Below are positions 11,992 to 26,765 of a stretch of DNA of 64,000 nt, piece by piece. Source of the DNA: Halogeometricum limi (GTDB lineage: Archaea; Halobacteriota; Halobacteria; Halobacteriales; Haloferacaceae). The DNA lies in assembly GCF_900115785.1 (NCBI RefSeq), contig NZ_FOYS01000004.1, forward strand, positions 1-64,000, in the 5' to 3' direction. The notes beneath the pieces were generated by a model. That model saw only the letters and a list, made by a program, of their open reading frames with translations. It was not told the origin of the DNA and made no database searches. How positions within the stretch are numbered: position 1 is the first letter of the stretch; every line of letters starts with the position of its first letter. The position numbers and the translations under genes were made by a program.

Positions 11992-12055
11992 TCGCCGGTT
12001 ACCGCGGTTATCCGGTTCGAAATTATGTAGTTCAGACTGGTAGCGGGCAGTGAAT

Positions 12056-13792
12056 ATGTATCGGCGTAGGTGGGCACCCGTCGTCGCCGTGGTCGCCGTC
12101 GGCGCGGCACTCCGTCTGTACGGTATCGGCTCGGAGAGTCTCTGGACGGACGAACTCATCACGCTCGCGTTCGTCCAGTCGATGACCGCCGGTGAACTGC
12201 TCACCACGATTCCGCGGGTGAATCCGCATCCGCCGCTCTACTACGTTCTGTTGGACCTGTGGGTCGGCGCGTTCGGAACGACCGAGACGGCGCTTCGACT
12301 CCCGTCGACGCTGTTCGGCGTCCTCTCGATACCGGCGCTCTACCTCCTCGGCCGTCGAATCGGCGACCACACCGTCGGACTCGTCGCCGCCCTGCTTCTC
12401 GCACTGTCGCCGTTCCACGTCCGTTACGCGCAGGAGGTGCGGATGTACGCGCTGTTCGTCTTTCTCGTCGTCGCCTCGTTCCTCCTCGTCCACGCCGTCG
12501 CCGACCGTCGGTCACGCCGACCACGACACCGGCGCGGACTCCTCGCCGCGTGGGTGCTCTCCTGTCTCCTCCTCGTGGGAACGCACTACTTCGGGGGGTT
12601 CGTCGTCGCCGCTCAGGTGACCTACCTCGTGATTCGACTGGACCGCGTCCTCCCCCGCGGAGTCGGGTCGTTCTCGACGCGCCGCATCCAGCGAGCGTAC
12701 GGCTTCGCGACGCTCGCGAGTCCGCTGTTTCTGCTCGCGCTCGGTGCGGTGTTCGACCTGCCGCACTACTTCTACATCCCGTTCCCGACGCCGCGGTTCG
12801 CCGCCGGAACGCTCGCGCGCTTCTTCGTCGGCTACGGGACCGTTCCGCTCGCCGTCTCCGTCGCCGTTCTCGTCCTCGTCGGGACCCTCGCGACGCTCGC
12901 GGCGGTTCGTTTCGACGCGACCACGCCGCTGGACTTCGACTCGTCGCTCCGCGCGACGCTCCGCCGCGCCCGCGTCGACGTCGGAGACGACGGACTCGCA
13001 CTCGCCGCCGTCGCCTTCCTCGTCCCGTTCTTCGGTCCGGTCCTCGTCTCCTACCTCGTCGTCCCCGTGTTCTGGCCGCGGTACGTCATCGCCGCCTCCG
13101 TCGGCCTCTTTCTCCTCGTCGGACTCGGCGTCCGAACCCTCCCGCGCGAATCGCTACAGGTCGCCGCCGTCGCCCTCCTCGTCGTCGCCGTCGTTCCGAT
13201 GACGGGCGTCTACCACACGACAGACCAGAAAGAGGAGTGGCGCGAAGCCGGGAACGTCGTCGAGGAGAACGCCCACTCCGGCGACTTGGTCCTCCTGATG
13301 GACCGGATAAGCGAGTACGCGCTGACGTACTACGTCGACCGCGAGGACGTCGAACGCGGGACCATCGTCGGCGCGAGTTCGGGAACCGGATACGACGCGA
13401 ACACCTCCGCGGAGATAGCCGAGAAGACGGTCGGTCACGACCGAGTCTGGCTGTTTCTCAACCACGGCACCGACGAGGAGCGAGAACGCGTCCTGACCGC
13501 CGTGCGCGGGTCGCGAACGCAGGTGTTCCACCGCCAGTTCTTCCAGGTCGAACTCTACCTGTTCGACCGGTCGCCGGACGCGGCGTCCGGGACCGACTCC
13601 GACTCGGCGGCCTCGACTGAACCGGCGGCGGGTGCGTCCGCGTCCGTGTCTACGTCCGCGTCCGCGTCGCCCGCGACGTTCGTCGCCGACCCCGGCGTGA
13701 CCGACTGGCGCTGGCGGTCGGTCTCGCGGACGACGGGGGGGTCGAACGCAGGCGCTGAATCTCGACGGCACCGTTTTGCCGTCGCAGACTGA
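12056..13792 (+). CDS. GT39-like membrane glycosyltransferase
   Basis: 578 residues with about ten membrane segments in the first 390 residues. The first extracytoplasmic loop carries ESLWTDELITL, the acidic catalytic-loop pattern of the PMT/ArnT-like (GT-C) fold, and HPPLYYVLLDLW follows, as in the family. Such enzymes move a sugar from a lipid phosphate carrier to an acceptor outside the membrane. The C-terminal 80 residues are soluble and include a Ser/Ala-rich low-complexity stretch (near 515-545). I chose ATG 12056 over GTG 12050. It opens the glycan locus and sits nine bases before the formyltransferase gene. Confidence 0.85.
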   Translation: MYRRRWAPVVAVVAVGAALRLYGIGSESLWTDELITLAFVQSMTAGELLTTIPRVNPHPPLYYVLLDLWVGAFGTTETALRLPSTLFGVLSIPALYLLGRRIGDHTVGLVAALLLALSPFHVRYAQEVRMYALFVFLVVASFLLVHAVADRRSRRPRHRRGLLAAWVLSCLLLVGTHYFGGFVVAAQVTYLVIRLDRVLPRGVGSFSTRRIQRAYGFATLASPLFLLALGAVFDLPHYFYIPFPTPRFAAGTLARFFVGYGTVPLAVSVAVLVLVGTLATLAAVRFDATTPLDFDSSLRATLRRARVDVGDDGLALAAVAFLVPFFGPVLVSYLVVPVFWPRYVIAASVGLFLLVGLGVRTLPRESLQVAAVALLVVAVVPMTGVYHTTDQKEEWREAGNVVEENAHSGDLVLLMDRISEYALTYYVDREDVERGTIVGASSGTGYDANTSAEIAEKTVGHDRVWLFLNHGTDEERERVLTAVRGSRTQVFHRQFFQVELYLFDRSPDAASGTDSDSAASTEPAAGASASVSTSASASPATFVADPGVTDWRWRSVSRTTGGSNAGAESRRHRFAVAD

Positions 13793-13801
13793 CCCTGTGG
13801 T

Positions 13802-14572
13802 ATGACGACAGTCGCCTTCTTCGGGAGCCACCCGCTCGGTGCCCGCTGTCTCGAACGCCTCCACGACCACGACGGAATCGACGTCTCCGTCGTCGTCACG
13901 TACCCGCCGGACCACGACGGCTGGTGGGACGAGTCGGTGAACGAACTGGCCCATCGGTTGGGCTACCCGGTGCTGACCCGCGAGGAGGCTCACCGCGCGA
14001 CCGAGTACCCCGTCGACTACCTCCTCAGCGTCTACTACCCGGACGTACTCGGCCCGAACCTGTTGGCACATCCCGACGTGGCACCGATAAACCTCCATCA
14101 GGCGGAACTGCCGCGCTACCGCGGGAGCAACGTCTTCAGCCACAGCATCATGAACGCCCGCGCCGACGACCACTGGAAGCACGGGACGACGATGCACGTC
14201 ATGGCCGAGTCCGTCGATGCGGGCGACGTGATAGCGCGACGGTTCGCCGAGATACGTCCGGACGACACGGCGCGGACCCTGTACGACCGCGTCCACGAGG
14301 TGTCCGTCGAACTGTTCGAGGAGATGCTCCCGAAGTTCGTCTCGGGCGAACTGCTGGCGATGGCCACGCCGCAAGCGGAGTTCGACGGCGAGCGCTACTT
14401 CTACAGTAAGGCGAGTCTGGACGGACTGAAGGAGATTCCCGCCGCGGAACTCGCGGACGAAGACGGCCAGACGGAACTGTACGACCGTATCCGCGCCCTC
14501 GACTTCCCACCTCACGAACCGGCCTACACGCGAGTCGACGGCGAGAAAGTGTATCTGACGCTCGGGCGGTGA
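13802..14572 (+). CDS. Formyltransferase-family protein, probably sugar N-formyltransferase
   Basis: 256 residues with the Fmt-type Rossmann fold. The Asn-His-Asp catalytic triad is visible: N97 and H99 in INLHQAELPRYRGSN, and D139 in VDAGD. The usual NxHxSLLP loop reads NLHQAELP. It is shorter than methionyl-tRNA formyltransferase and lacks its C-terminal tRNA-binding domain; archaea also do not formylate initiator tRNA. Together with the aminotransferase and oxidoreductase genes nearby, a role in N-formylating an amino sugar for surface glycan is likely. Nine bases after the membrane glycosyltransferase. Other formyl-transfer substrates remain possible. Confidence 0.82.
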   Translation: MTTVAFFGSHPLGARCLERLHDHDGIDVSVVVTYPPDHDGWWDESVNELAHRLGYPVLTREEAHRATEYPVDYLLSVYYPDVLGPNLLAHPDVAPINLHQAELPRYRGSNVFSHSIMNARADDHWKHGTTMHVMAESVDAGDVIARRFAEIRPDDTARTLYDRVHEVSVELFEEMLPKFVSGELLAMATPQAEFDGERYFYSKASLDGLKEIPAAELADEDGQTELYDRIRALDFPPHEPAYTRVDGEKVYLTLGR

Positions 14573-14652
14573 GTCGAGGACGCGCCGCACTCGCAGGCGA
14601 GGGGTGCGTCGACGTCTCGTGCCGAACCGTGCTCGCGAGCCGCGCTACCCTA

Positions 14653-14660
14653 CATATACA
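14653..14660 (+). promoter_or_regulatory. TATA-like element before VTT-domain gene
   Basis: CATATACA at 14653-14660, about 40 bases before the ATG at 14700, in an otherwise GC-rich gap. Suggests a separate transcript for the membrane protein with a short leader. Confidence 0.45.
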
Positions 14661-14699
14661 GGCATAACCCCCTTTCACACCCGTCGCGCACGAAACGGC

Positions 14700-15356
14700 A
14701 TGGATTCGCGTGTTCGGTCGGTCGGGAGTGCGCTCGTCGTCGCCATCGCGGCCGGTGCCCTGTTTCTCTTCTCGCCAGAGTGGGTACTCGAACGACTCGG
14801 ATGGCTCGCGGGCGACCCCGTGCGATTCGCCGTCGCGCTCGTCGTCCTCGCACTCGTCCGACCCCTGTTACTCTGGCCGGCGACGCTCGTGGCCGTCCTC
14901 GCGGGCTACGCCTGGGGGCTGATGGCGTTCCCCGTCGCACTCGTGCTGATGGTCGTCACCTGCACGCCGCCGTACCTCTTCGGTCGGTTCTCCGCCGACG
15001 GCGGCCGGTTCTCCGAGGTGGGCGAGAAGGCGATGGACGTCGCCGGCGACTTCCGCGGCATCGTCGCCGGACGCGTCTTCCCGGCGCCGTCCGACATCGT
15101 CTCCGTCGGGTCGGGACTCGCGGGCGTCCGGTCTCGGACGTACCTCGGCGCGACGGCCGTCGGCCAGATTCCGTGGGCGTTCGCGGGCGTCGCCGCCGGT
15201 GGCTCCATCTACCGCGTCGTCAACGAGGGTATCACCGCCGTCGTCAGCCCCTCGATACTCGCCGCAACCGTCGTCGTCGCGGCGCTGATGTTGGCGGGGC
15301 CGGCGTACAGTTACGCGACCGACGGGGGCGACATCGCGGACGTCGTCGCCGGATGA
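14700..15356 (+). CDS. VTT-domain (TVP38/TMEM64, DedA-like) membrane protein
   Basis: 218 residues, five or six membrane segments. The central block (RPLLLWPATLVAVLAGYAWG, then FGRFSADGGRF and GRVFPAPSDIVSVGSGLAGV, then the YLGATAVGQIPWAFAGVAAGG segment) is the pattern of the VTT domain. Members of this superfamily are membrane proteins, some of which flip or recycle lipids, including undecaprenyl phosphate. In a glycan locus a role in recycling the lipid carrier is conceivable but unproven. ATG 14700 is chosen because the reading frame upstream is arginine-rich and unlike a protein start. Confidence 0.82.
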   Translation: MDSRVRSVGSALVVAIAAGALFLFSPEWVLERLGWLAGDPVRFAVALVVLALVRPLLLWPATLVAVLAGYAWGLMAFPVALVLMVVTCTPPYLFGRFSADGGRFSEVGEKAMDVAGDFRGIVAGRVFPAPSDIVSVGSGLAGVRSRTYLGATAVGQIPWAFAGVAAGGSIYRVVNEGITAVVSPSILAATVVVAALMLAGPAYSYATDGGDIADVVAG

Positions 15357-15382
15357 GCGTCGGAAAGCGAGGAGAGAGGGCG

Positions 15383-16417
15383 TCAGTCGTCGGCCTGCGC
15401 CGGGACGGACTCAGGGTCGACGCCCGCCGGGAGCGAGACGGACTCACCGAGTTCGTCGGAGCGCTCTGCGGCCTCCAGTAGTTCGACCGTCTCCGCACCG
15501 ACGCGTCCGGTCGCGGGCGGGTCGGTTCGCGTCTCGCAGGCGTCGACGAACGCCTCGACTTCGAGACGGAGGGGTTCGCCGCCGTCGACTTCGTGTCGGC
15601 GGACGCCCTCGTCGCGGGCCTGTAACACGCCTTCCTCGCGAACCACCTCGGCGTCGTGTATCTCGACGACGGTGTCTTCGAGGTAGTCGATGTGTGCGGA
15701 ACGCTTCGACCCGACGACGGTCAGGTCCCGCCGCTTGTCGAAGACGGGGACGTGCCAGGACTCGTTGATGACGCCGGTGACGTCGCCGTACGAGAGCGTC
15801 AGCGTCGCCGTCTCGTCGATGCCGTCGCGGACGTTCGAGTCCAAGCGACAGTAGACGCTGTCGGGTCGGGCGTCGAGGAGATGCGAGTAGACGTCCACGT
15901 CGTGGACGGCCAGCGAGTAGAGCGCACCCGCGTCCGGTCGCGGCGTCCGGAAGGCGTATCGCGTCGTCGTGAGGTACCGTATCTCGCCGAGTTCGCCCCG
16001 GTCGATACGTCGTTTCAGGTCGCGGAGCGCAGGGTGTGAGCGGAAGATGTGCCCCACCCCCAGGACGCAGTCGTTCGCCTCGGCGCGTTCGACCAGCGAC
16101 CACGCGTCCCGACTCGTCGTCGCCAGCGGTTTCTCGACGAGGACGTCGACGCCGGCGTCGAGGAGTTCACAGCCCACCTCGTGATGCGTCACGGAGGGCG
16201 TGGCGACGACGACGGCGTCGACGCCGGAAGCGACGAGGTCCGAGATGCTGGTGACGTACGGCACGCCGTAGGAGTCGGCCATCTCGCTCGCGCGTTCCTC
16301 GTCGATGTCGCAGAGCGTCAGCGAGTCGATGTCTCCCGCTTCGACGAGTTCGGCGGCGACGCGGACGTGGTTGCTTCCCCAGTAGCCCGTGCCGACGACG
16401 CCGTACTCAAGCCCCAC
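15383..16417 (-). CDS. Gfo/Idh/MocA-type sugar oxidoreductase
   Basis: 344 residues. NAD(P)-binding GTGYWGSN at residues 9-16, the family Lys in VLVEKPLA (K96), and the His-Asp pair AVHDVDVY (H172, D173). This resembles the enzymes that oxidise C3 of a nucleotide sugar before transamination. Its start overlaps the end of the aminotransferase gene by 11 bases, so the two are read together, in the same pairing as WbpB/WbpE-like enzymes of bacterial and archaeal amino-sugar pathways. Substrate is inferred, not visible. Confidence 0.9.
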   Translation of the reverse strand: MGLEYGVVGTGYWGSNHVRVAAELVEAGDIDSLTLCDIDEERASEMADSYGVPYVTSISDLVASGVDAVVVATPSVTHHEVGCELLDAGVDVLVEKPLATTSRDAWSLVERAEANDCVLGVGHIFRSHPALRDLKRRIDRGELGEIRYLTTTRYAFRTPRPDAGALYSLAVHDVDVYSHLLDARPDSVYCRLDSNVRDGIDETATLTLSYGDVTGVINESWHVPVFDKRRDLTVVGSKRSAHIDYLEDTVVEIHDAEVVREEGVLQARDEGVRRHEVDGGEPLRLEVEAFVDACETRTDPPATGRVGAETVELLEAAERSDELGESVSLPAGVDPESVPAQADD

Positions 16418-17534
16418 GGCCGCCCTCCTCGAAGTACGACGCGACGGCGTCGCAGACGTGGCTGACGTCGCCGGGCGTCAGACGCGGATGCATCGGCAGC
16501 GACAGGATGCGGTCGTACAGGTTCTCCGTTACGGGGAGCGACGACTCCCCGACGCGTTCGAGGACCGCCGGGTGGCGGTGCGCCGGCGTCTCGTAGTGGA
16601 CGCCCGTCTGCACCCCGGCGTCTTCGAGATATCCGCGGAGGGCGTCGCGGTCCGCCGGCGGCACCTGCACGACGTAGAGGTGGTAGACGTGCGTCGCGTT
16701 CTCGGGGACGGCGGGGGTGACCACCTCGTCGACGTCCGCGAGGCAGTCGTCGTAGTGGGCGGCGGCGGAGACGCGGGCGTCGTTCCAGTCGCGGACCTGC
16801 CGCAGTTGCTCGCGTCCCACGACGGCTTTCACCTCGTCGAGACGGTAGTTCAACCCGAGCGCTCGGTGGACGCCGTCGCCGTCGCGGCCGTGGTTCCGAA
16901 GCCTTCGCGCGGACTCGGCGACGTCGTCTCGGTCGGTGACGAGCATCCCGCCGTCGCCGCCGACGGTCATGTTCTTCGAGGGGTAGAAGCTGAACGCGCC
17001 CGCGTCGCCCGCGGTTCCCGCGACGTGTCCGTCGCGTTCGGCGAAGTGCGCCTGACAGGCGTCTTCGACGACGACCAAATCGTAGTCGTCGGCGACGTCG
17101 GTGATGGCGTTCATATCCGCCATCGCGCCGTAGATGTGGACGGGCATCACTGCCGAGGGGTTCCCCGCGGCGGCGACCTTCTCTTCGAGGTCCGCGGGGT
17201 CCATCGTGTACGTCTCGGGGTCGACGTCGACGAACACGGGCGTCGCGTCCAGTGCGAGGACGGGCGAGGCCGTCGCGAAGAACGTGTTTCCGGGGACGAA
17301 CACCTGTTCGTCCTCGCTCCCCCCGACGCCAGCCGCTTCCAACGAGAGGAGGAGGGCGGCCGTCCCACTGCTGACGCCCACGGCGTGTTCGACGCCGCAC
17401 TCTTCGGTGAACTCTCGCTCGAACGCCTCCAGTTCCGGTCCCTTCACGTACCGCGTACTCCGCATCACCTCGCCCACCCGGTCGACGATGGTGTCGTCGA
17501 CGTAGACGTCGGTGAACGGAACTTCGGCTGTCAT
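16407..17534 (-). CDS. DegT/DnrJ/EryC1/StrS sugar aminotransferase
   Basis: 375 residues from the ATG at 17534; an in-frame extension to 17603 lacks family similarity. Fold type I PLP enzyme: PLP lysine K187 in SFYPSKNM, VVEDACQAHFAE near residue 160, and the GVHYETPAHRHP substrate loop near residue 307. Transfers an amino group to a keto-sugar nucleotide. First gene of a two-gene unit with the oxidoreductase; together they would turn a sugar hydroxyl into an amine. An AT-rich leader with GTTAC/GTAAC arms (17563-17579) precedes it. Soluble and cytosolic. Confidence 0.93.
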   Translation of the reverse strand: MTAEVPFTDVYVDDTIVDRVGEVMRSTRYVKGPELEAFEREFTEECGVEHAVGVSSGTAALLLSLEAAGVGGSEDEQVFVPGNTFFATASPVLALDATPVFVDVDPETYTMDPADLEEKVAAAGNPSAVMPVHIYGAMADMNAITDVADDYDLVVVEDACQAHFAERDGHVAGTAGDAGAFSFYPSKNMTVGGDGGMLVTDRDDVAESARRLRNHGRDGDGVHRALGLNYRLDEVKAVVGREQLRQVRDWNDARVSAAAHYDDCLADVDEVVTPAVPENATHVYHLYVVQVPPADRDALRGYLEDAGVQTGVHYETPAHRHPAVLERVGESSLPVTENLYDRILSLPMHPRLTPGDVSHVCDAVASYFEEGGRGA

Positions 17535-17682: not shown

Positions 17683-18597
17683 ATGACGGTACTCGTGAGC
17701 GCGGTGATTCCGACGTACAATCGCGAGTCGTACGTGGGCGGTGCCATCGAGAGCGTTCTCGAACAGACGTACGAGAACGTGGAGGTGGTGGTCGTGAACG
17801 ACGGGTCGACGGACGGAACCGAGAGCGTCCTCGCCGAGTACGCGGACGACGACCGGGTTCGCGTCCTGCGCAACGACGAGAACCGGGGGATTCCGTACAC
17901 GATGAACCGCGGCGTCGAGGCGGCCCGCGGCGACTATATCGGCGTCTTCGGCGACGACGACCGCTGGTATCCGACGAAAGTCGAGAAACAGGTCGCGGTC
18001 CTCGAAGGACTCGGCGACGACTACTGCGGCGTCTACACCGGCGGCGTCATCCGCGACGGGTCGGGCGAGGTCGTCGACCGCGTCCGATGGGACCGCGGCG
18101 GCGACCGTTTCCCGGAGATTCTCGTCCGGAACACGGTGCTCCCGCACTCCAGTCACCTGGTCCGCGCGGAGTGTTTCGAGGCCGTCGGCGGGTTCGACGA
18201 GTCGTTCGACATCGCCTGCGACTGGGACCTCACCATCCGCCTGTCGAAGCGGTGGAAGTGGGCGTGCATCCCCGAAGAACTCGTCGAACGCACCCACCAC
18301 GACGGCAACGTGACCGGCGACCCCGACTACGACGTCCGGTGTCGGGCCGCCGTCCGCGAGAAGTACGCCGCCGAACTCGCGGCGAACCCGGACGCACGCC
18401 GACGGTTCGAGGCGGCGGCACACCGCGAACGCGGCGTCCGGGCGTTGGAGGCGGACGACCGAACCGAGGCGGTTCGCGAACTCTCGAACGCGTTCGTCCG
18501 CGAACGGCGCGGCGACCACGCGGCCCTCCTCGCACTCGCACCGTTCGGCCCGCGCGCGCTCTCTGCCGCCCGCGCACTCCGCGGCGTCCGCGGCTGA
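17683..18597 (+). CDS. Glycosyltransferase family 2
   Basis: 304 residues, GT-A fold. Nucleotide-binding start VSAVIPTYNRESYVGGAIESV, VVVNDGSTDGT near residue 35-45 and the DxD-like GDDDRW near residue 90; a WDLTIRLSK acceptor-side motif is near residue 185. Uses a nucleotide sugar in the cytosol. Residues after 260 are basic and alanine-rich. Ahead of it is its own TATA box; 117 bases separate it from the methyltransferase/toroid gene. Confidence 0.93.
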   Translation: MTVLVSAVIPTYNRESYVGGAIESVLEQTYENVEVVVVNDGSTDGTESVLAEYADDDRVRVLRNDENRGIPYTMNRGVEAARGDYIGVFGDDDRWYPTKVEKQVAVLEGLGDDYCGVYTGGVIRDGSGEVVDRVRWDRGGDRFPEILVRNTVLPHSSHLVRAECFEAVGGFDESFDIACDWDLTIRLSKRWKWACIPEELVERTHHDGNVTGDPDYDVRCRAAVREKYAAELAANPDARRRFEAAAHRERGVRALEADDRTEAVRELSNAFVRERRGDHAALLALAPFGPRALSAARALRGVRG

Positions 18598-18714: not shown

Positions 18715-20514
18715 ATGCGAGACGAGGTACTCGAACGGTGGGTAAAGCAACCGGCGGCCGCTCCGATAGTGCAGTATCTCCGCGACGCGGAGAAGGAGTC
18801 CGCGTGGGAACTGTTGGGGCGGCGGGGTCGCGTCCTGGACCTCGCCTCGGAGGTGAACGTCACCCGCGGCCTCGATGCCGAACGCGTGACGCGACTCGAC
18901 TTCGCCGAGGGGGCCAGCGAGTCCGCCAGAGACGCGCTCGGTGACGACGTCGACGAGTACGCCTGGACCGACCCGGAGGCCCCGACGCTTCCGTTTCCGG
19001 ACGACCACTTCGACGGAGCGGTCTCGATCGGTCCGTACGACTGGCGCTTTCTGGACGTCGAACGCCTGACGGCGGAAGTCCGGCGCGTGGTCGGTTCCGA
19101 GGGGCGGTTCGTCTTCTCCGTCCCCACCCCGCGCTCGCCGTACTTCGCCGGCGGCAAACACCGGATGCGATACTACGACCCCGACGAGGCCCGCCGCCTG
19201 TTCGCTCCGCGGTGGCAGTTGGCCGACTACGACCTGGTCTACCAACTCCCGCAACGCGTCCACGCCCACGCCGGACACCTTCCGTGGTCCGTGCAGGGAC
19301 CGTTCGTCGACCTCTCGGAACGACTGTCGGAGCGTCTCTCGGCGCGCGACGCGTGGGAGGACGCCTCCTATCTCGTCCTCGCCGTCGAACCGTTCGACTA
19401 CGACGCGCACCTCGACGCCGCCCTCGACTGCCTCTTTCGGCCCACCCGAGAGAACGGCTTCTGGGACGGAGCGAACGAGCGGTTGCTTCGCGCACTCGAT
19501 TACCGGGTCGACGCGGACGGAGAGCAGATAGTCGAGTGGACGCCGAACGACGAGAACCAGTGGCGCTACGCGACGTTCGCTCTCGCGGGCCTCCTCCAGT
19601 GGCGCGTCTCCGACCGCGGAACCGACGCCTACGACGAGAGACTCCGCTCGCAGTTGGCGCACTTCCGCGAGGCCGTCTCCGACGAGACGACGCGCGAGGA
19701 GATGCCGAGTTACGGGCTCGGCCCCCTCGTGGCCGCGTTCTCGCTCGCGTCGGACGTGTTCGACTCGGACGACGAGAGCGGAGACCACCTCGCCGTCGCT
19801 CGCGACCTGCAGGCGTACACCGCGGACCGGTTCGACTTCTCGAACAGCGAGGACAGCCTCCTCCTCTACGGGTGGACGTACCTCTACGAACGCGACCCGA
19901 CCGACGCTCTTCGCGACGACGTCGTCCGCGCGATGGACGCCGTCGTCGACAGACAGGACGGCTGGGAGACGCTGTTTCTCTTCGACAACCCGACGACGCG
20001 TCGCCACCAGAATCAGATGTACACGCTGTGGGGACTCGCCCGAGCCATCGAGGTGACCGGGCTCACGGGCTATCTGGAGAACGTCGAACGCGTCCTCGAC
20101 TACACCGTCGAGAACCGGATGCGAGACGACGGCGCGTTCCTCTGGGAGGACCCGACGCGGCGGATGCTCGTTGGCAACGAACTCCGGCACAGACTCCGCG
20201 GAGAGCGTTCACCGCCGCACTGGGAGTTACTCTACGAGTGCCACCAGACGTTCTTCGTCAACGCCGTCGCGCACTACTACGCCGCCGGCGGCGAGAAGAA
20301 CTACGACCGCGAGGTGGGCGACGCGATGGGGTGGATATACGACGACAGCGACGGCCCCTCGCTGGTCGACCAGAGCGGTCTCGGCGTGCCGACGCGCTTC
20401 CAAACCGCCGACGGCCGAATCGACGTGCCCGGCCAGACGTTCAAGGGCGCGTACGAGGTTGGCTCGTACGTCGCCGCCCTGACGCACCTCGTCACCGGGA
20501 CGGCCGAGCGGTAA
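18715..20514 (+). CDS. Two-domain protein: methyltransferase-like fold plus alpha/alpha-toroid
   Basis: 599 residues. Residues about 35-225 look like a class I methyltransferase (VLDLAS near 40-45, then PFPDDHFDGAVSIG and EVRRVVGSEGRFVFSVPT), but the glycine-rich SAM loop is absent, reading DLASEVNVTRGL. From about residue 245 to the end the sequence is a run of paired helices with Trp/Tyr-rich motifs (FWDGANERLLRALDY, NQWRYATFALAGLLQW, LLLYGWTYLYER, NQMYTLWGLARAIEVTG), the pattern of six-hairpin glycosidase or polysaccharide-lyase toroids. No membrane segment or signal peptide. Its neighbours are glycosyltransferases, so it probably acts on a cytosolic glycan or lipid-linked sugar. Its last 23 bases overlap the convergent GT4 gene. 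Confidence 0.78.
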   Translation: MRDEVLERWVKQPAAAPIVQYLRDAEKESAWELLGRRGRVLDLASEVNVTRGLDAERVTRLDFAEGASESARDALGDDVDEYAWTDPEAPTLPFPDDHFDGAVSIGPYDWRFLDVERLTAEVRRVVGSEGRFVFSVPTPRSPYFAGGKHRMRYYDPDEARRLFAPRWQLADYDLVYQLPQRVHAHAGHLPWSVQGPFVDLSERLSERLSARDAWEDASYLVLAVEPFDYDAHLDAALDCLFRPTRENGFWDGANERLLRALDYRVDADGEQIVEWTPNDENQWRYATFALAGLLQWRVSDRGTDAYDERLRSQLAHFREAVSDETTREEMPSYGLGPLVAAFSLASDVFDSDDESGDHLAVARDLQAYTADRFDFSNSEDSLLLYGWTYLYERDPTDALRDDVVRAMDAVVDRQDGWETLFLFDNPTTRRHQNQMYTLWGLARAIEVTGLTGYLENVERVLDYTVENRMRDDGAFLWEDPTRRMLVGNELRHRLRGERSPPHWELLYECHQTFFVNAVAHYYAAGGEKNYDREVGDAMGWIYDDSDGPSLVDQSGLGVPTRFQTADGRIDVPGQTFKGAYEVGSYVAALTHLVTGTAER

Positions 20515-21733
20515 CCGGGCGGTTCTCGGATTCGTCTCCGTCCGGGAGCACTCCCCGTCGGACCAGTTCCCGATACTTCTCCTCGCAGAACTCGTCCCAC
20601 GTCGGCACGCGACTCGCGTCCGGCGTCTCACCGGTGTCGAGCAGCGATTCGAGCGCGTCGGCCCAACTCGCCGCGTCGGGGTCGGCGACGCGGACGGCGG
20701 GCGCGTCGCCGAGAATCTCCTTCACGTAGGTGTCCGTCGAGAGACCGACGGGCGTGCGCATCCCGTACGCCTCCAACGGCGCGAGACCGTACGACATCCA
20801 CGCCGGGCAGGCGAACGCGTCGGCCGACGTGTAGTAGGCGGGGAGGTCGGACTCGGCGACGTACCCCTCGAACCGCACGTGGTCGTCGAGTCCGCCGTCG
20901 GCGACGGCATCTCTGAGTCGCGCCTCGTCGTCCCCGGTGCCGCAGAGGACGAGTCCGACGTCGCGGCCGCGGTCACGCACGCGGCCGACCGCTTCGACGA
21001 GGACGCCGAGTCGCTTCCGCGAGTCGAGTCGGCTGACGCTCAAGACGGTGTGCTCGTGGTCGGTGAGCGTCCGCGTCTGCACCGCCTCGTATCGGTCGAG
21101 CCACGACCGAGAGACGCCGGGACGGACCACCTCGGGCGTCGCGCCGTACAGCCCTCGGAGTTCGGTCGCCACGCGGTTCGACCCGGTGAAGACGGCGTCG
21201 GTCTCGCGGAGGACGCGTCCTTTCACACGCTCCCAGCACTCGACTCTGAGGCGTTCTCGGACGCCCGGCCGGGGGTCGCCGTGGAACTCGCGGTGGCCGG
21301 GGACGGCGGCGACGAGTTCGTCGTACGTCCCGCGACGGCGGTGCGGAAGGTGACGGGCGTCTTCGGGGAACCAGAGGACGGAGCCGTGAACGTGCGAGAC
21401 GGTGGGCGGGTCCGTCGGGAGGGTGGCGAGGGCGACGCCCGTCTCCTGTTCCGTGTAGTGCGTGAAGACGACGTCCGGCGACGCCGCGCGGAGGACGCGT
21501 CGAATCCGGCGAGCGCCGGGCAGGCGGTGCCTCGGGTCGCCGTAGACGACGACGGTGACGGCGTCCGGGAGTCTCACTTCGGAGAGGTAGTCCTCGTCGT
21601 AGCGGGGCACCGCCAGCGTCACGTCGTGACCGCGGGCCGCCAGGAACCGGGCTTCTTCGAGAACGAGTCGTTCCGCGCCACCCGGCGGCGCGAGTTCGAG
21701 ACCGAAGACGACGCAGATTCGCGTTCGCGTCAT
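20492..21733 (-). CDS. Glycosyltransferase family 4
   Basis: 413 residues, GT-B fold. N-terminal glycine loop in LELAPPGGAERLVLEEARFLAARGHDV; the second domain begins with TVLSVSRLDSRKRLGVLVEAV near residue 228 and has VRFEGYVAESDLPAYYTSADAFACPAWMSYGLAPLEAYG near 285-325, the donor-binding region, where the first acidic residue of the usual EX7E pattern is not evident. Follows the GT2 gene at 21734 with no gap. Its 3' end overlaps the opposite-strand gene by 23 bases. Confidence 0.92.
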   Translation of the reverse strand: MTRTRICVVFGLELAPPGGAERLVLEEARFLAARGHDVTLAVPRYDEDYLSEVRLPDAVTVVVYGDPRHRLPGARRIRRVLRAASPDVVFTHYTEQETGVALATLPTDPPTVSHVHGSVLWFPEDARHLPHRRRGTYDELVAAVPGHREFHGDPRPGVRERLRVECWERVKGRVLRETDAVFTGSNRVATELRGLYGATPEVVRPGVSRSWLDRYEAVQTRTLTDHEHTVLSVSRLDSRKRLGVLVEAVGRVRDRGRDVGLVLCGTGDDEARLRDAVADGGLDDHVRFEGYVAESDLPAYYTSADAFACPAWMSYGLAPLEAYGMRTPVGLSTDTYVKEILGDAPAVRVADPDAASWADALESLLDTGETPDASRVPTWDEFCEEKYRELVRRGVLPDGDESENRPVTARPSR

Positions 21734-22642
21734 TCAGTTCACCCGACTCAGCACCCGGTCGGCGAACGTCAGTCCGGTGCGTCCGAAGAGCGACGCCGCG
21801 AGGAACGCGCCTCGCTCCGGTGACGGCTCTCCCCGGAAGGCGCGGAGAAACGCGCGTATCGCCCGCGGGTCCCACGCTCGCTCTCCGAGTCTGACGCGCC
21901 CTTCGAGGGCGTTCGTGGCGGCGACGGCGCGGCGCCGGGGCGCCGGGTGGAGACCGTACACGTGAGCGTACTCCCAGAGGATGTCCCGCCGCCCGCGGAC
22001 GACACCCCGAGACTTCCCGCGGGATTCCCCCGCTTCGCCGCGGGTGACCAACACCTCGTCCACGTAGTCGAACGCCGTCCGCCGCGCGAGGTCAATCATC
22101 AGGCCCAAGTCGTCGCCGCCGGGGCGGTTCGCGAGAGGGAGGACGGCGGCCAGTTCGTCGCTGTCGACGAGCATCGTCGAGGTGACGCAGGGCGAGAGGT
22201 CGAACGCGAGTGCTTGCGGGAGGACGTCGCCGCGACAGTCCGGATTCGGGAGGACGTCGTCGCCTCTTTCGAAGCACATCCCGCAGTAGGCGACGCCTAC
22301 CGCGCCCTCGTCGTCCGAGTTCGACGCCTCCAACAGCGCGACCTGTTTCGAGAGCTTCGTCGGGTGGAGTCGGTCGTCGTCGTCCAACAGTTGCACGTAC
22401 GCGCCGTCGGCGCGTTCGATACCGGCCATCCGGGCGGGGTTGCCGCCGCGGTTCTCCGGGAGGGCGACGTACTCGACTGGGTACTCCTCGGCGACGGGTT
22501 CGGCGTGCGCCTCCCCGGAGTCGTCCACGACCACAACCTCGACGGCGTCGTAGTCGCTCGCGAGGACGCTCTCGACGGCGTCGCGCAGTCTATCGTTTCG
22601 GTAGTAGGTGGGGACGACGACGGAGACCAGGGGGGCGGCCAT
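21734..22642 (-). CDS. Glycosyltransferase family 2
   Basis: 302 residues, GT-A fold: VSVVVPTYYRNDRLRDAVESV at the start, VVVDDSGEAH near residue 38, and the DDDD metal-binding run in QLLDDDDRLHP near residue 86. Cytosolic sugar transferase. First gene of a two-gene unit; the ATG of the GT4 follows its stop directly. Divergent from the flippase gene, with 126 bases between. Confidence 0.93.
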   Translation of the reverse strand: MAAPLVSVVVPTYYRNDRLRDAVESVLASDYDAVEVVVVDDSGEAHAEPVAEEYPVEYVALPENRGGNPARMAGIERADGAYVQLLDDDDRLHPTKLSKQVALLEASNSDDEGAVGVAYCGMCFERGDDVLPNPDCRGDVLPQALAFDLSPCVTSTMLVDSDELAAVLPLANRPGGDDLGLMIDLARRTAFDYVDEVLVTRGEAGESRGKSRGVVRGRRDILWEYAHVYGLHPAPRRRAVAATNALEGRVRLGERAWDPRAIRAFLRAFRGEPSPERGAFLAASLFGRTGLTFADRVLSRVN

Positions 22643-22768
22643 GTAGCAGGGACTGCCCGCGCGGAGGTACTGTCTCTTTCGGTCGTTTCGACCGACGGCG
22701 ACGGCGGCGGCGACCCGAACGACCGTTATCCGGCGCGTACCTTTGACCGGTGTCGCCGTCTCTCGACC

Positions 22769-24301
22769 GTGCGCTGGCCTCGCGATTTACTCTCGACGCT
22801 CCGGGGCGGTCCGCTTCCCTCCGGGTCGCTCGTCGAACGTGCCGTCAAGGGCGGCCTCTGGGCCGCCGGCACGAACGTCGGCGAACGACTCGTTCTCCTC
22901 GGGCGGTTCGTCGTCCTCGCGACGGTGCTTCCGCCCTCCGAGTTCGGCCTCTTGGGTATCGCCCTCCTCGTCGTCGCCATCTTCGAACGGCTCTCGGATT
23001 TGGGACTGGACGCCGCACTCGTCCAACGCGCCGAGGACGACGTGGACGACTACCTCGACACCGCACTCGCGATGCGCGCGGTTCGCGGCGCCGCCCTCCT
23101 CGCTCTCGGACTCGCCGTCGCCCCCCTCGCCGCCGACTTCTTCGGCGATTCGCGGCTGACTGACGTGATTCGGGTGCTGGCGCTCAGTCCGTTCCTGTTC
23201 GGCCTCCAGAACCCCGGCATGGTCTACCTCCAGAAGGAACTGGATTTCCGCAGGAAGGCCGTCTACCGGATGACCGGCGCGGTGGTCGACACCGCCGTCG
23301 CCGTCGGCTACACGTTCGTCGTCGCTCCCCTCCTGTTGAACAGAGACCCCACGGTGTGGGCGCTCGTGTTCGGCGTCGTCGCGGGTAACCTCACCCGCGT
23401 CCTCGTCTCGTACGTCGTCCACGACTACCGACCCGGACTCGGCGTCGACGTCGCGCGCGCCAGAGAACTCGTCACGTACGGCAAGTGGATGACCGGATTG
23501 AACGCGCTGGTCTTTCTCGTCACCGAGGGCGACGACATCTTCGTCGGGTGGGCGCTCGGAAGCACCGCCGTCGGGTTCTACCAGATGGCGTACCGCTTCT
23601 CGAACGCGCCGGCCACGGAGATAACGCACGTCGTCTCTGACGTGGTGTTCCCGACGTACTCGAAGCTTCAGAACGACGCCGCTCGACTCCGCGAGGCGTA
23701 CTTCCGGACCCTTCAGCTCACCACGTTCGTCGCGTTCCCCGTCGCCGTCGGCGTCGCGGCCATCGCGCCGACGTTCGTCCTCACCGTGTTCGGTCCCGAG
23801 TGGGAACCCGCCATCGACGTGATGCGCGTCTTGGCCGTCTTCGGTCTCCTCCGTTCCCTCGGCGCGACGACCGGGCCGCTGTTCCAAGCGGTCGGTCGCC
23901 CGGACCTCGGCACGAAAGTCCAGTTCGGCAAACTCGTCGTGTTGGCGGCGCTCGTCGTCCCCCTGACGGACGCGTACGGCCTCGTCGGAACCGCCCTCGC
24001 CGTCGTCGGCGCGTCCGTCTGCTTCTCGGAACCCGTCTCGGCGTACCTCGCCGTCGACATCGTCGACGGCCGGTTTCGGACGCTCGCCCGCGTCGTCGGC
24101 TATCCCGCGGTCGCAAGCGCTCTGATGGCCGCGGTGGTCGTCTCGCTACAGGCGCAGGTGGGCGTCGGCGTCCTCGGTCTCGCCTTCCTCGTCGCTTCCG
24201 GCGTGGTGACGTACGCCGCCGTCGTCCTCCTCTTCGAACTCCGCCTCGGCTACGACATGCGGACGGTGGCGCGGACGCTCGCGGGCGGGTTCGGAAACTG
24301 A
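22769..24301 (+). CDS. Oligosaccharide flippase (MOP superfamily)
   Basis: 510 residues with about 12-14 membrane segments. GGLWAAGTNVGERLVLLGRFVVLATVLPPSEFGLLGIA at the start is the Wzx/RfbX-like entry motif, and FRRKAVYRMTGAV and WALGSTAVGFYQMAYRF are further family marks. Moves lipid-linked sugar chains to the outer face of the membrane. The reading frame is open far upstream, but that part is arginine-rich shadow of the GT2 gene; GTG 22769 gives a family-like start. Its presence shows the locus exports a complete lipid-linked glycan. Confidence 0.92.
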   Translation: MRWPRDLLSTLRGGPLPSGSLVERAVKGGLWAAGTNVGERLVLLGRFVVLATVLPPSEFGLLGIALLVVAIFERLSDLGLDAALVQRAEDDVDDYLDTALAMRAVRGAALLALGLAVAPLAADFFGDSRLTDVIRVLALSPFLFGLQNPGMVYLQKELDFRRKAVYRMTGAVVDTAVAVGYTFVVAPLLLNRDPTVWALVFGVVAGNLTRVLVSYVVHDYRPGLGVDVARARELVTYGKWMTGLNALVFLVTEGDDIFVGWALGSTAVGFYQMAYRFSNAPATEITHVVSDVVFPTYSKLQNDAARLREAYFRTLQLTTFVAFPVAVGVAAIAPTFVLTVFGPEWEPAIDVMRVLAVFGLLRSLGATTGPLFQAVGRPDLGTKVQFGKLVVLAALVVPLTDAYGLVGTALAVVGASVCFSEPVSAYLAVDIVDGRFRTLARVVGYPAVASALMAAVVVSLQAQVGVGVLGLAFLVASGVVTYAAVVLLFELRLGYDMRTVARTLAGGFGN

Positions 24302-24312
24302 ACTGAGAAAAG

Positions 24313-25596
24313 CTACGCGCCGGTCAGGTCGTCGTAGAGCGCGACGAGCGTCTCCGCGTCGTCCGCCCACGCGTATCTGTCGACGACGGCGCGACGGGCG
24401 CTCTCGCCGAGTCGGTCTCGTAACTCCGCGTCGTCGCCGAGTGCCGCGAGTGCGGTGGCCATCGCTGCCGGGTCGCTGGCGGGGACGACGCGCCCGCCGC
24501 CCGCGTCGCGGACGATTCGACCGAGCGGTCCCACGTCAGTCGCGACGACGGGGACCGAGAGCGCCATGTACTGGAACAGTTTGTGCGGCACCGTCGTCTC
24601 GGTGTGGGCGTTCGAGACGTGGGGTACGAGCCCCACGTCGCACGCCGCCATGAAGCCGGGAACGTCGGCGGCGTCGACCCAACCGGTGAAGGTGATTCGG
24701 TCACCGACGCCCGTCTCCGCGGCGAGTTCGCGAAGTCCCTGGTCGTAGCCCGGTTCGTTCGACCCGCCGACGAGGAGGAGTCGCGCGTTCGGAACGGCGT
24801 CGACGACGGCCGGAAACGCGCGGATGGCCGTCTCGATGCCTCGGTGTGGACCGAAGCTCCCGACGTAGCCGACGACGAACTCGTCGTCCGCCGCGGCGTC
24901 CCCCCGACCCGACTCGATGGGGGCGACGCGCTCCGGGTCGTACACGTCCAAGTCGACGGTGTTCGAGACGACGCTCACCGTCCGCGGGTCCGCGCCGCAG
25001 TCGCGGAGGTAGTGCGCGCGCGCCTCCTCGGCGACGGTCAGGACGCGGTCGGCGCGGGCGACGGCCCGACGTTCGAGTCGTTTCAACCGCCACACCGGGG
25101 CGACGACCGTCTGGACTCCCCGTCGCCACCGGGGCATCCCGCGCCGCCACTGCCGCACCGCCTCGGGGTAGTTCTCGTGGAGGTCCGCGACGACCGGCAG
25201 GCCGTACTCGTCGGCGACGTCCTGCGCCGTCTGGACGAGTGGGAGGTCGTGGACGTGGAGGACGTCGACGTCGTCCGTCTCCACGAAGTCGACGAGTTCG
25301 CGCCGCCAGATTCGGTCCGAGAGCGTCGCCGTGTACGCGAGCGTCTTGACGCCTCGTTGGAGGAGGCCGTACTTCTCCTGCCGCCGAAACCGGGTTACCG
25401 TCGCGCCGCCGACGCGTTCTCGCTCCGGGTCGTCGTCGCCGCCGAGACAGAGGAGCGAGACGTCGTAGCCCGCGGCGACGAGGACTCTCACCTCCTTCTC
25501 GACGCGCACGTCGGGCGGATAGTGACCCTTGAGAACCATCCCGATACGCGGCCCCGAGCGACGTTGCGACGTCTCGGACTCCGTGTCTGCGCTCAT
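24313..25596 (-). CDS. Glycosyltransferase family 4
   Basis: 427 residues from ATG 25596. GT-B fold; MVLKGHYPPDVRVEKEVRVLVAAGYDV near the start, VLHVHDLPLVQTA near residue 100, VVGYVGSFGPHRGIETAIRA near 240 and the donor region HVSNAHTETTVPHKLFQYMALSVPVVATDVG near 325. This resembles WbuB/WcaI-like transferases. Overlaps the upstream GT4 gene by 4 bases (ATGA). The 11-base gap to the convergent flippase leaves no room for another gene. Confidence 0.93.
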   Translation of the reverse strand: MSADTESETSQRRSGPRIGMVLKGHYPPDVRVEKEVRVLVAAGYDVSLLCLGGDDDPERERVGGATVTRFRRQEKYGLLQRGVKTLAYTATLSDRIWRRELVDFVETDDVDVLHVHDLPLVQTAQDVADEYGLPVVADLHENYPEAVRQWRRGMPRWRRGVQTVVAPVWRLKRLERRAVARADRVLTVAEEARAHYLRDCGADPRTVSVVSNTVDLDVYDPERVAPIESGRGDAAADDEFVVGYVGSFGPHRGIETAIRAFPAVVDAVPNARLLLVGGSNEPGYDQGLRELAAETGVGDRITFTGWVDAADVPGFMAACDVGLVPHVSNAHTETTVPHKLFQYMALSVPVVATDVGPLGRIVRDAGGGRVVPASDPAAMATALAALGDDAELRDRLGESARRAVVDRYAWADDAETLVALYDDLTGA

Positions 25597-26765
25597 CTGC
25601 TCTGGACGCTCCGCACCGCACCGATGGCCGACTCGAACTGCGTCGGTTCGGTGTGACGAATCTCGTCTATCACCTCGAAGAACGACGCGCGGAACGCGTC
25701 GAGTCGAGTCGCCTCGTCGAAGCGGACGCCGCGTTCTCGCGCCGTCTCCGAGAGGCGTCGACGTTCGGCGACCGGTCGGTCGAAGTAGTCGACGACGCCC
25801 GAAGCGAGAGCGGACGGCGTCGCCTCGACGACCATCGAGGGGTCGACCCGTTCGACTTCGGACCGCGTCCCGACGGTGTCGGTGACGAGCGCCGGGAGTC
25901 CGGCGCACATCGCTTCGAGCGAACTCACGGGGAACGCGTCCATCCGCGACGGCTGAACGTACAGCGAGGCGTTCGAGAACGACTCCGCGAGCGAGTCCAC
26001 GTAGCCGTGGACTTCGACGCCCGCCGCGTCGCCGTAGGAGTCGGGATGCCCCGCGCCGACGAGGTGGAGTTCGGCCTCTGGGTGTCGTTCTCGAACCGTC
26101 GACCATGCCTCGACTAAGAGGTCGAACCCCTTGTACGGTTCGGGCCTGCCGACGGCGACGGCGACGGTCGATTCGAGGTCCGGGTCGGTCGCTTCGAGTT
26201 CGGGCTGAACCGACTCGTCGATGTACGGGTGCGCGACTCGAACCGGCGTTCGCGGACCGACGATGTCCGCGGTGAAGTCGGCGGCGAAGTCCGAGACGGC
26301 GACGACGCCGTCGATACCCCAGTCGGCGACGCGCCGGATGGCGGGGACGCCGAACCGACCCACCAGCGACTTGACGAACGACGTGCCGACGAAATCGTCG
26401 CTTCCGACGTGGTAGAGGCCGTGGTCCGCACAGAGGTAGACGACGGTGGTGTCGGTGACCGCGCGGCCGACGAGCGCCGCGTACAGCGGAACCGACCCCT
26501 CGACGAGACAGACGTCGTAGTTCGGGAGTCTGAGTCCGTTCACCACGTCGTCGGCGACGGTTCCCGAGAGGGGGCCGGCGGAGTGTTCGCGGTAGTCTAT
26601 CAGGTCCGCGCCGATGGCCTCGGCGAACCCTCTGTGGGCCGGGTGCGGGTCGAAGTACAGCATCGCGACGTCCAAGTCGAACAACTCGTCCGCCACTCCG
26701 ACGTCCGTCGTCTCGCTCTCTCTCTCGACCGAGCGTCGGTCTCGGCGAACGTGTTGGGAACTCAT
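25593..26765 (-). CDS. Glycosyltransferase family 4
   Basis: 390 residues, GT-B fold. The C-terminal donor domain has AVAVGRPEPYKGFDLLVEAW near residue 190, VEVHGYVDSLAESFSNASLYVQPSRMDAFPVSSLEAMCAGLPALVTD near 240-285 with the EX7E-like region. The first 30 residues are charged and unordered. First gene of a two-gene unit with the GT4 at 24313. It marks the right end of the glycan locus; a tRNA gene follows. Confidence 0.92.
   Translation of the reverse strand: MSSQHVRRDRRSVERESETTDVGVADELFDLDVAMLYFDPHPAHRGFAEAIGADLIDYREHSAGPLSGTVADDVVNGLRLPNYDVCLVEGSVPLYAALVGRAVTDTTVVYLCADHGLYHVGSDDFVGTSFVKSLVGRFGVPAIRRVADWGIDGVVAVSDFAADFTADIVGPRTPVRVAHPYIDESVQPELEATDPDLESTVAVAVGRPEPYKGFDLLVEAWSTVRERHPEAELHLVGAGHPDSYGDAAGVEVHGYVDSLAESFSNASLYVQPSRMDAFPVSSLEAMCAGLPALVTDTVGTRSEVERVDPSMVVEATPSALASGVVDYFDRPVAERRRLSETARERGVRFDEATRLDAFRASFFEVIDEIRHTEPTQFESAIGAVRSVQSR

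Follow-up and report, generated by a model that had tools for sequence, protein, structure and literature searches.

A probable 3-formamido sugar pathway in haloarchaeal glycan loci, with a capping enzyme that appears to alternate with an acetyltransferase

Which sugar amine would a formyltransferase cap when its gene lies beside a dehydrogenase and aminotransferase pair in an archaeal glycan locus, and would it do so in place of an acetyltransferase? The question is raised by a locus of Halogeometricum limi (NCBI RefSeq assembly GCF_900115785.1, contig NZ_FOYS01000004.1, positions 1 to 64,000; this stretch of 64,000 nucleotides is called the window below), in which a sugar-type N-formyltransferase is encoded close to a Gfo/Idh/MocA dehydrogenase (Gfo) and a DegT-family aminotransferase (DegT) (Table 1). 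A preliminary description of the locus proposed that a sugar formyltransferase takes the place of the usual acetyltransferase. The alternative occupants of one slot beside orthologous Gfo-DegT pairs, and a second substitution in a Wbp-type operon, support that proposal. On the sequence evidence, we put at roughly 78% the probability that this trio makes a 3-formamido sugar for a surface glycan and that its cap has repeatedly been exchanged with an acetyltransferase at the same slot.

Two capping enzymes at one slot

We compared 42 orthologous Gfo-DegT pairs for the gene found past the 3' end of Gfo, which in most cases is convergent with Gfo; a second pair in the window's own genome, with neither cap, and a decayed duplicate on a Halorientalis plasmid were left out. 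The slot holds a formyltransferase in 29 of the 42 pairs and a hexapeptide N-acetyltransferase in 13, and in none are both intact. At some of the 29 formyltransferase-type pairs, at least one small gene or a few kilobases separate Gfo from the formyltransferase. The nearest solved relatives of the slot acetyltransferase include the N-acetyltransferases WxcM, WlbB and QdtC. One genome has, just past the acetyltransferase, a decayed formyltransferase gene that contains stops and frameshifts. When whole genomes were searched, all 13 acetyl-type genomes proved to have the slot acetyltransferase, and none of the 28 formyl-only genomes did (Fisher p 2.6e-7). For the window itself, the earlier remark that no acetyltransferase is visible holds for the Pfam-scanned genes of the locus. 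In relatives, two sugar N-acetyltransferase families partner such pairs, and the H. limi genome contains no member of either.

The slot pairs form one clade in a tree of concatenated Gfo and DegT sequences. On this tree, the formyl/acetyl label changes six times, with at least four changes forced by well-supported branches, and monophyly of the acetyltransferase-type pairs is rejected (approximately unbiased test, p-AU 3e-11). The label changes and the rejected monophyly indicate that the capping enzyme was exchanged several times, while the two upstream enzymes were kept. Support in the formyltransferase tree is too weak for counting transfer events. Archaea seem to change this cap through the exchange of a single gene next to two constant partners. 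In other haloarchaea, the same pathway would end in the hexapeptide N-acetyltransferase.

Other haloarchaeal Gfo-DegT pairs belong to a separate clade, and several are linked to a uridine diphosphate (UDP)-sugar dehydrogenase. One genome (G190, locus L114) has the order WbpD-like acetyltransferase, DegT, Gfo and dehydrogenase, the acetyltransferase standing directly before DegT, a set that matches the bacterial UDP-GlcNAc3NAcA pathway (PMC10622841). In another (G051, locus L077), the order is formyltransferase, DegT, Gfo and UDP-sugar dehydrogenase, with four-base overlaps; a WbpD-like acetyltransferase is found nowhere in that genome or in G049 (locus L076). Judged by gene order, the window's formyltransferase family stands where this second pathway otherwise has its 3-N-acetyltransferase, and of the evidence at hand this substitution speaks most strongly for a 3-amine as the acceptor of the formyltransferase.

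The linkage of the three genes was assessed in 391 Halobacteria genomes. A formyltransferase ortholog was detected in 28 of them. The Gfo-DegT pair occurs in 31, the two genes having an identical distribution. Formyltransferase and pair co-occur in 24 genomes, against 2.2 expected (p ~4e-28, with shared ancestry ignored). Since the trio recurs in many haloarchaea, the linkage goes beyond chance, and chance co-location is rejected by the co-occurrence together with the exclusivity of the slot. Four genomes of the window's own genus were sampled, and the formyltransferase was found in none of them; it is present in genomes of other families, including on a Halorientalis plasmid, which is the pattern of a horizontally moving cassette. 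A plasmid search with the formyltransferase returned one close and one distant haloarchaeal relative.

Additional copies show some irregular arrangements. In genome G340, a formyltransferase without a pair (72% identical; locus L054, 9876-10655) adjoins a BacA/UppP-family gene (L054, 8901-9839, - strand), and a Gfo-DegT pair with an acetyltransferase sits on another contig. The Halorientalis sp. IM1011 plasmid pHOS100 carries a second copy of the trio (L125, 10671-14130) with DegT and the formyltransferase broken; this decayed copy shares its flanking SMC-related and RdfA genes with the intact one on that plasmid. The second pair of the H. limi genome (L121, 9423-11560, contig C8 of G000) adjoins neither capping enzyme, and over long stretches its DegT hardly differs from the one in the window, as would follow from gene conversion.

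The amine and the starting sugar

The open reading frames are intact and lie at the positions given in the preliminary description, and the Gfo and DegT genes overlap by 11 bases (16407-16417), as stated there. Gfo scores 213 bits against NF040723, the archaeal UDP-N-acetylglucosamine (UDP-GlcNAc) 3-dehydrogenase model, which is below the curated 450 and still the best NCBIfam model. Its nearest solved protein by phmmer and by profile hmmsearch is 7bvj, which Foldseek also ranks first and names GnnA UDP-GlcNAc 3-dehydrogenase (structure model with a predicted local distance difference test score, pLDDT, of 91). Across the orthologs, the EKP motif and H172 of Gfo and the catalytic K187 of DegT are invariant. 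Profile ranking of DegT places the 7b0d transaminase first, followed by the C3 aminotransferases DesV, QdtB and WbpE, with the C4 enzymes perosamine synthase and ArnB lower. With Gfo nearest to GnnA and DegT nearest to C3 aminotransferases, the product is likely a 3-amino derivative of a UDP-GlcNAc-type sugar. The operon would oxidise C3 of such a sugar and transaminate it to a UDP-3-amino sugar, most likely UDP-GlcNAc3N. The formyltransferase would then place a formyl group from N10-formyl-tetrahydrofolate (N10-formyl-THF) on the 3-amine. The resulting 3-formamido sugar would most likely be UDP-2-acetamido-3-formamido-2,3-dideoxyglucose, and the glycosyltransferases and flippase encoded nearby may build it into a surface glycan.

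UDP-GlcNAc as substrate is read from the nearest neighbours, because Gfo and DegT score under the curated NCBIfam cut-offs. The alternative that survives best, although we consider it unlikely, is that the trio makes a 3-formamido sugar from another nucleotide sugar, such as a UDP-hexuronic acid or a deoxythymidine diphosphate (dTDP)-hexose, and not a GlcNAc derivative. Gfo scores under the UDP-GlcNAc 3-dehydrogenase cut-off and its fold also resembles glucuronide-3-dehydrogenase and WlbA in Foldseek, and the formyltransferase also accompanies Wbp-type pairs linked to a UDP-sugar dehydrogenase, so that its substrate range may be wide. Against this, GnnA ranks first for Gfo both by sequence and by fold, and no 6-dehydrogenase, 4,6-dehydratase or ketoisomerase was found adjoining the trio among the Pfam-scanned genes of the window.

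The formyltransferase was described earlier as an Fmt-fold protein without a tRNA-binding domain and with catalytic N97, H99 and D139, and it is so. It matches Formyl_trans_N (PF00551) at 72 bits (cut-off 26.1) and, weakly but above the cut-off, the sugar-type dimerisation domain N_formyltrans_C (PF18216; 31.3 against 25.8 bits), with no Pfam match to Formyl_trans_C, the Fmt-type tRNA-binding C-terminal domain, in its 256 amino acids. In the 29 orthologs, N97 and H99 are invariant and D139 is conserved in more than 90%. The genome has two other PF00551 genes, which look like PurN fused to PurH and like PurU (ACT plus formyltransferase). We rejected methionyl-tRNA Fmt and PurN as identities for the window protein, which is separate from both. 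Since these two genes are present, formyl-folate is expected in the cell, and N10-formyl-THF is the probable donor.

Sequence search of the PDB and the top Foldseek matches of the AlphaFold model (pLDDT 87) give ArnA, Fmt and WbkC as the nearest solved relatives. Foldseek aligns the whole chain at a root-mean-square deviation of ~7 Å, which establishes the fold family and not the substrate; in its structural alignments the protein is ~16-25% identical to solved members. A likeness to VioF, WlaRD or ArnA had been anticipated; ArnA is among the nearest and VioF and WlaRD are not, while the pathway context still points to a 3-amine.

With the 4-N-formyltransferases ArnA and WbkC among the closest solved relatives, the enzyme could act on a 4-amino sugar made elsewhere, as ArnA, WbkC and VioF do, and be merely co-located with the pair in a glycan island. 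We regard this as improbable: in several families the enzyme is tightly linked to a single orthologous pair, an N-acetyltransferase is its exclusive alternative in that slot, and the Wbp-type operon shows a parallel replacement. That it formylates a non-sugar amine (peptide, hydroxyornithine) or hydrolyses formyl-folate is very improbable, since the fold, although common to LgrA, PurN, PurU and formyl-THF dehydrogenase, comes here with the sugar-type dimerisation domain (matched at E<=0.01 by 15 of the 29 orthologs), a glycan-locus context, no non-ribosomal peptide synthetase genes found nearby and the acetyltransferase substitution.

Several observations weigh against a 3-formamido sugar made by the trio from a UDP-GlcNAc-type precursor. 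The formyltransferase is closest to enzymes with 4-amine substrates (ArnA and WbkC) and to Fmt, and not to the 3-N enzymes WlaRD and QdtF, and no curated NCBIfam cut-off is reached by either Gfo or DegT. Four genomes, of which two have a Wbp-type pair, possess the formyltransferase without this pair type; in two genomes it lies on a different contig from the acetyltransferase-type pair; and the second pair of the H. limi genome lacks either cap.

Known pathways and the place of the trio

The window enzyme resembles the N-terminal domain of ArnA, WbkC, VioF and WlaRD in its Formyl_trans_N fold, the N-x-H...D catalytic residues and the lack of a tRNA-binding domain, and it would share with them the use of N10-formyl-THF to cap a nucleotide-sugar amine. 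The partners of the bacterial sugar formyltransferases are 4-keto or 3-keto dTDP-, UDP- or guanosine diphosphate (GDP)-sugar aminotransferases fed by dehydratases or decarboxylases, whereas the partner in the window is a Gfo/Idh 3-dehydrogenase with a C3-type DegT. Closer in this respect is GnnA-GnnB of the lipid A GlcN3N route, which likewise uses a Gfo/Idh and a DegT enzyme for a UDP-GlcNAc3N-type amine, the window Gfo being closest to GnnA. There, a fatty acid is later attached to the amine, whereas here an adjoining formyltransferase or acetyltransferase would cap it. The UDP-GlcNAc3NAcA pathway (WbpB-WbpE-WbpD) also combines a dehydrogenase and an aminotransferase, adding a hexapeptide 3-N-acetyltransferase, which is replaced by the formyltransferase family in L077. 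In contrast to the Wbp pathway, the window pair lies in another clade and has no linked UDP-sugar 6-dehydrogenase or acetyltransferase among the scanned locus genes, and the haloarchaeal WbpD-like family is absent from the window's genome.

The preliminary description knew of no established N-formyl sugar in haloarchaeal surface glycan, and on this point it must be corrected: the N-glycans of the Halorubrum sp. PV6 S-layer glycoprotein and of HRPV-1 VP4 carry 5-N-formyl-legionaminic acid as their cap, with HrrPV6_1050 as the candidate formyltransferase gene (PMC6137143). Alike in being an N-formyl sugar of a haloarchaeal surface glycan, it differs in being a nine-carbon sugar made by Leg genes, and a Pfam scan of genes in the window's glycan locus, at about 11-27 kb, gave no LegB, LegC, LegG, LegI or LegF family member. 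A sugar N-formyltransferase, with homologs linked to glycan genes, is also encoded by the pL6-family plasmid pHILL-c2, with dTDP-4-formamido-4,6-dideoxyglucose as the predicted product (PMC11431627). With N-formyl sugars already known in haloarchaea, the novelty lies in the 3-formamido pathway and its repeated swap. No description of a Gfo-DegT-formyltransferase pathway in archaea, or of a formyl/acetyl exchange, was found in the literature searched, which covered few subscription journals.

If the 3-formamido pathway is real, archaeal surface glycans would have a second class of N-formyl sugar, and the swaps would amount to a natural experiment in which a single gene determines whether the same amine carries formyl or acetyl. 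A formylated terminal sugar of the host has been linked to adsorption of the virus HRPV-1 (PMC6137143). Together with the recurrent swap, this means that exchanging the genes in a culturable haloarchaeon could test directly for a role in virus recognition. Our tentative suggestion is that one surface sugar is switched between 3-N-formyl and 3-N-acetyl by exchange of a single gene in two 3-amino-sugar pathways, probably altering recognition by viruses or mating partners.

The surrounding glycan locus

The label of glycan locus is right, given the PMT_2-type, GT2 and GT4 glycosyltransferases, the methyltransferase-domain protein and the Wzx-type flippase that surround the trio (Table 1).

Table 1. 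Features of the trio and of the glycan locus around it in the window
Feature	Positions	Strand	Evidence and remarks
PMT_2-type membrane glycosyltransferase, upstream of formyltransferase	12050-13792	+	PF13231, 52 bits
Sugar-type N-formyltransferase	13802-14572	+	256 amino acids; N97, H99, D139; PF00551 and PF18216
VTT/DedA-like membrane protein, between formyltransferase and Gfo	14700-15356	+	PF09335
Gfo/Idh/MocA dehydrogenase, probable UDP-GlcNAc 3-dehydrogenase	15383-16417	-	NF040723 best NCBIfam model; nearest 7bvj
DegT-family pyridoxal phosphate aminotransferase, probable 3-keto-sugar type	16407-17534	-	PF01041, 373 bits; ATG at 17534
GT2 glycosyltransferase, divergent neighbour of DegT	17683-18597	+	PF00535, 125 bits
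599-amino-acid protein, small methyltransferase domain	18715-20514	+	PF08241, 30 bits
GT4 glycosyltransferase	20492-21733	-	Pfam
GT2 glycosyltransferase	21734-22642	-	Pfam
Wzx-type flippase	21947-24301	+	PF13440, 246 bits; domain in C-terminal two-thirds of the open reading frame; true start downstream
GT4 glycosyltransferase	24313-26106	-	Pfam
GT4 glycosyltransferase	25593-26765	-	Pfam

Relatives of the GT2 gene that diverges from DegT adjoin the pair in six loci (L053, L058, L059, L061, L064 and L067), and the gene is conserved in some of the related loci. Relatives of the PMT_2-type gene occur in only two, adjoining the trio in L053 and lying inside the locus in L064. No match to the VTT/DedA-like gene was found in any other related locus, and for that reason we treat it as a bystander. 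An ArnT/ArnA-like lipid modification, prompted by the neighbouring PMT_2 and DedA-like genes, is unsupported, the one having relatives in two loci and the other in none. A conserved-looking open reading frame at 22787-23887 (- strand) was dropped as antisense to the flippase. Relatives of the 599-amino-acid protein, whose sole recognised part is the methyltransferase domain, recur near the trio by tblastn in L053, L061, L064, L068, L070, L073 and L075, among others.

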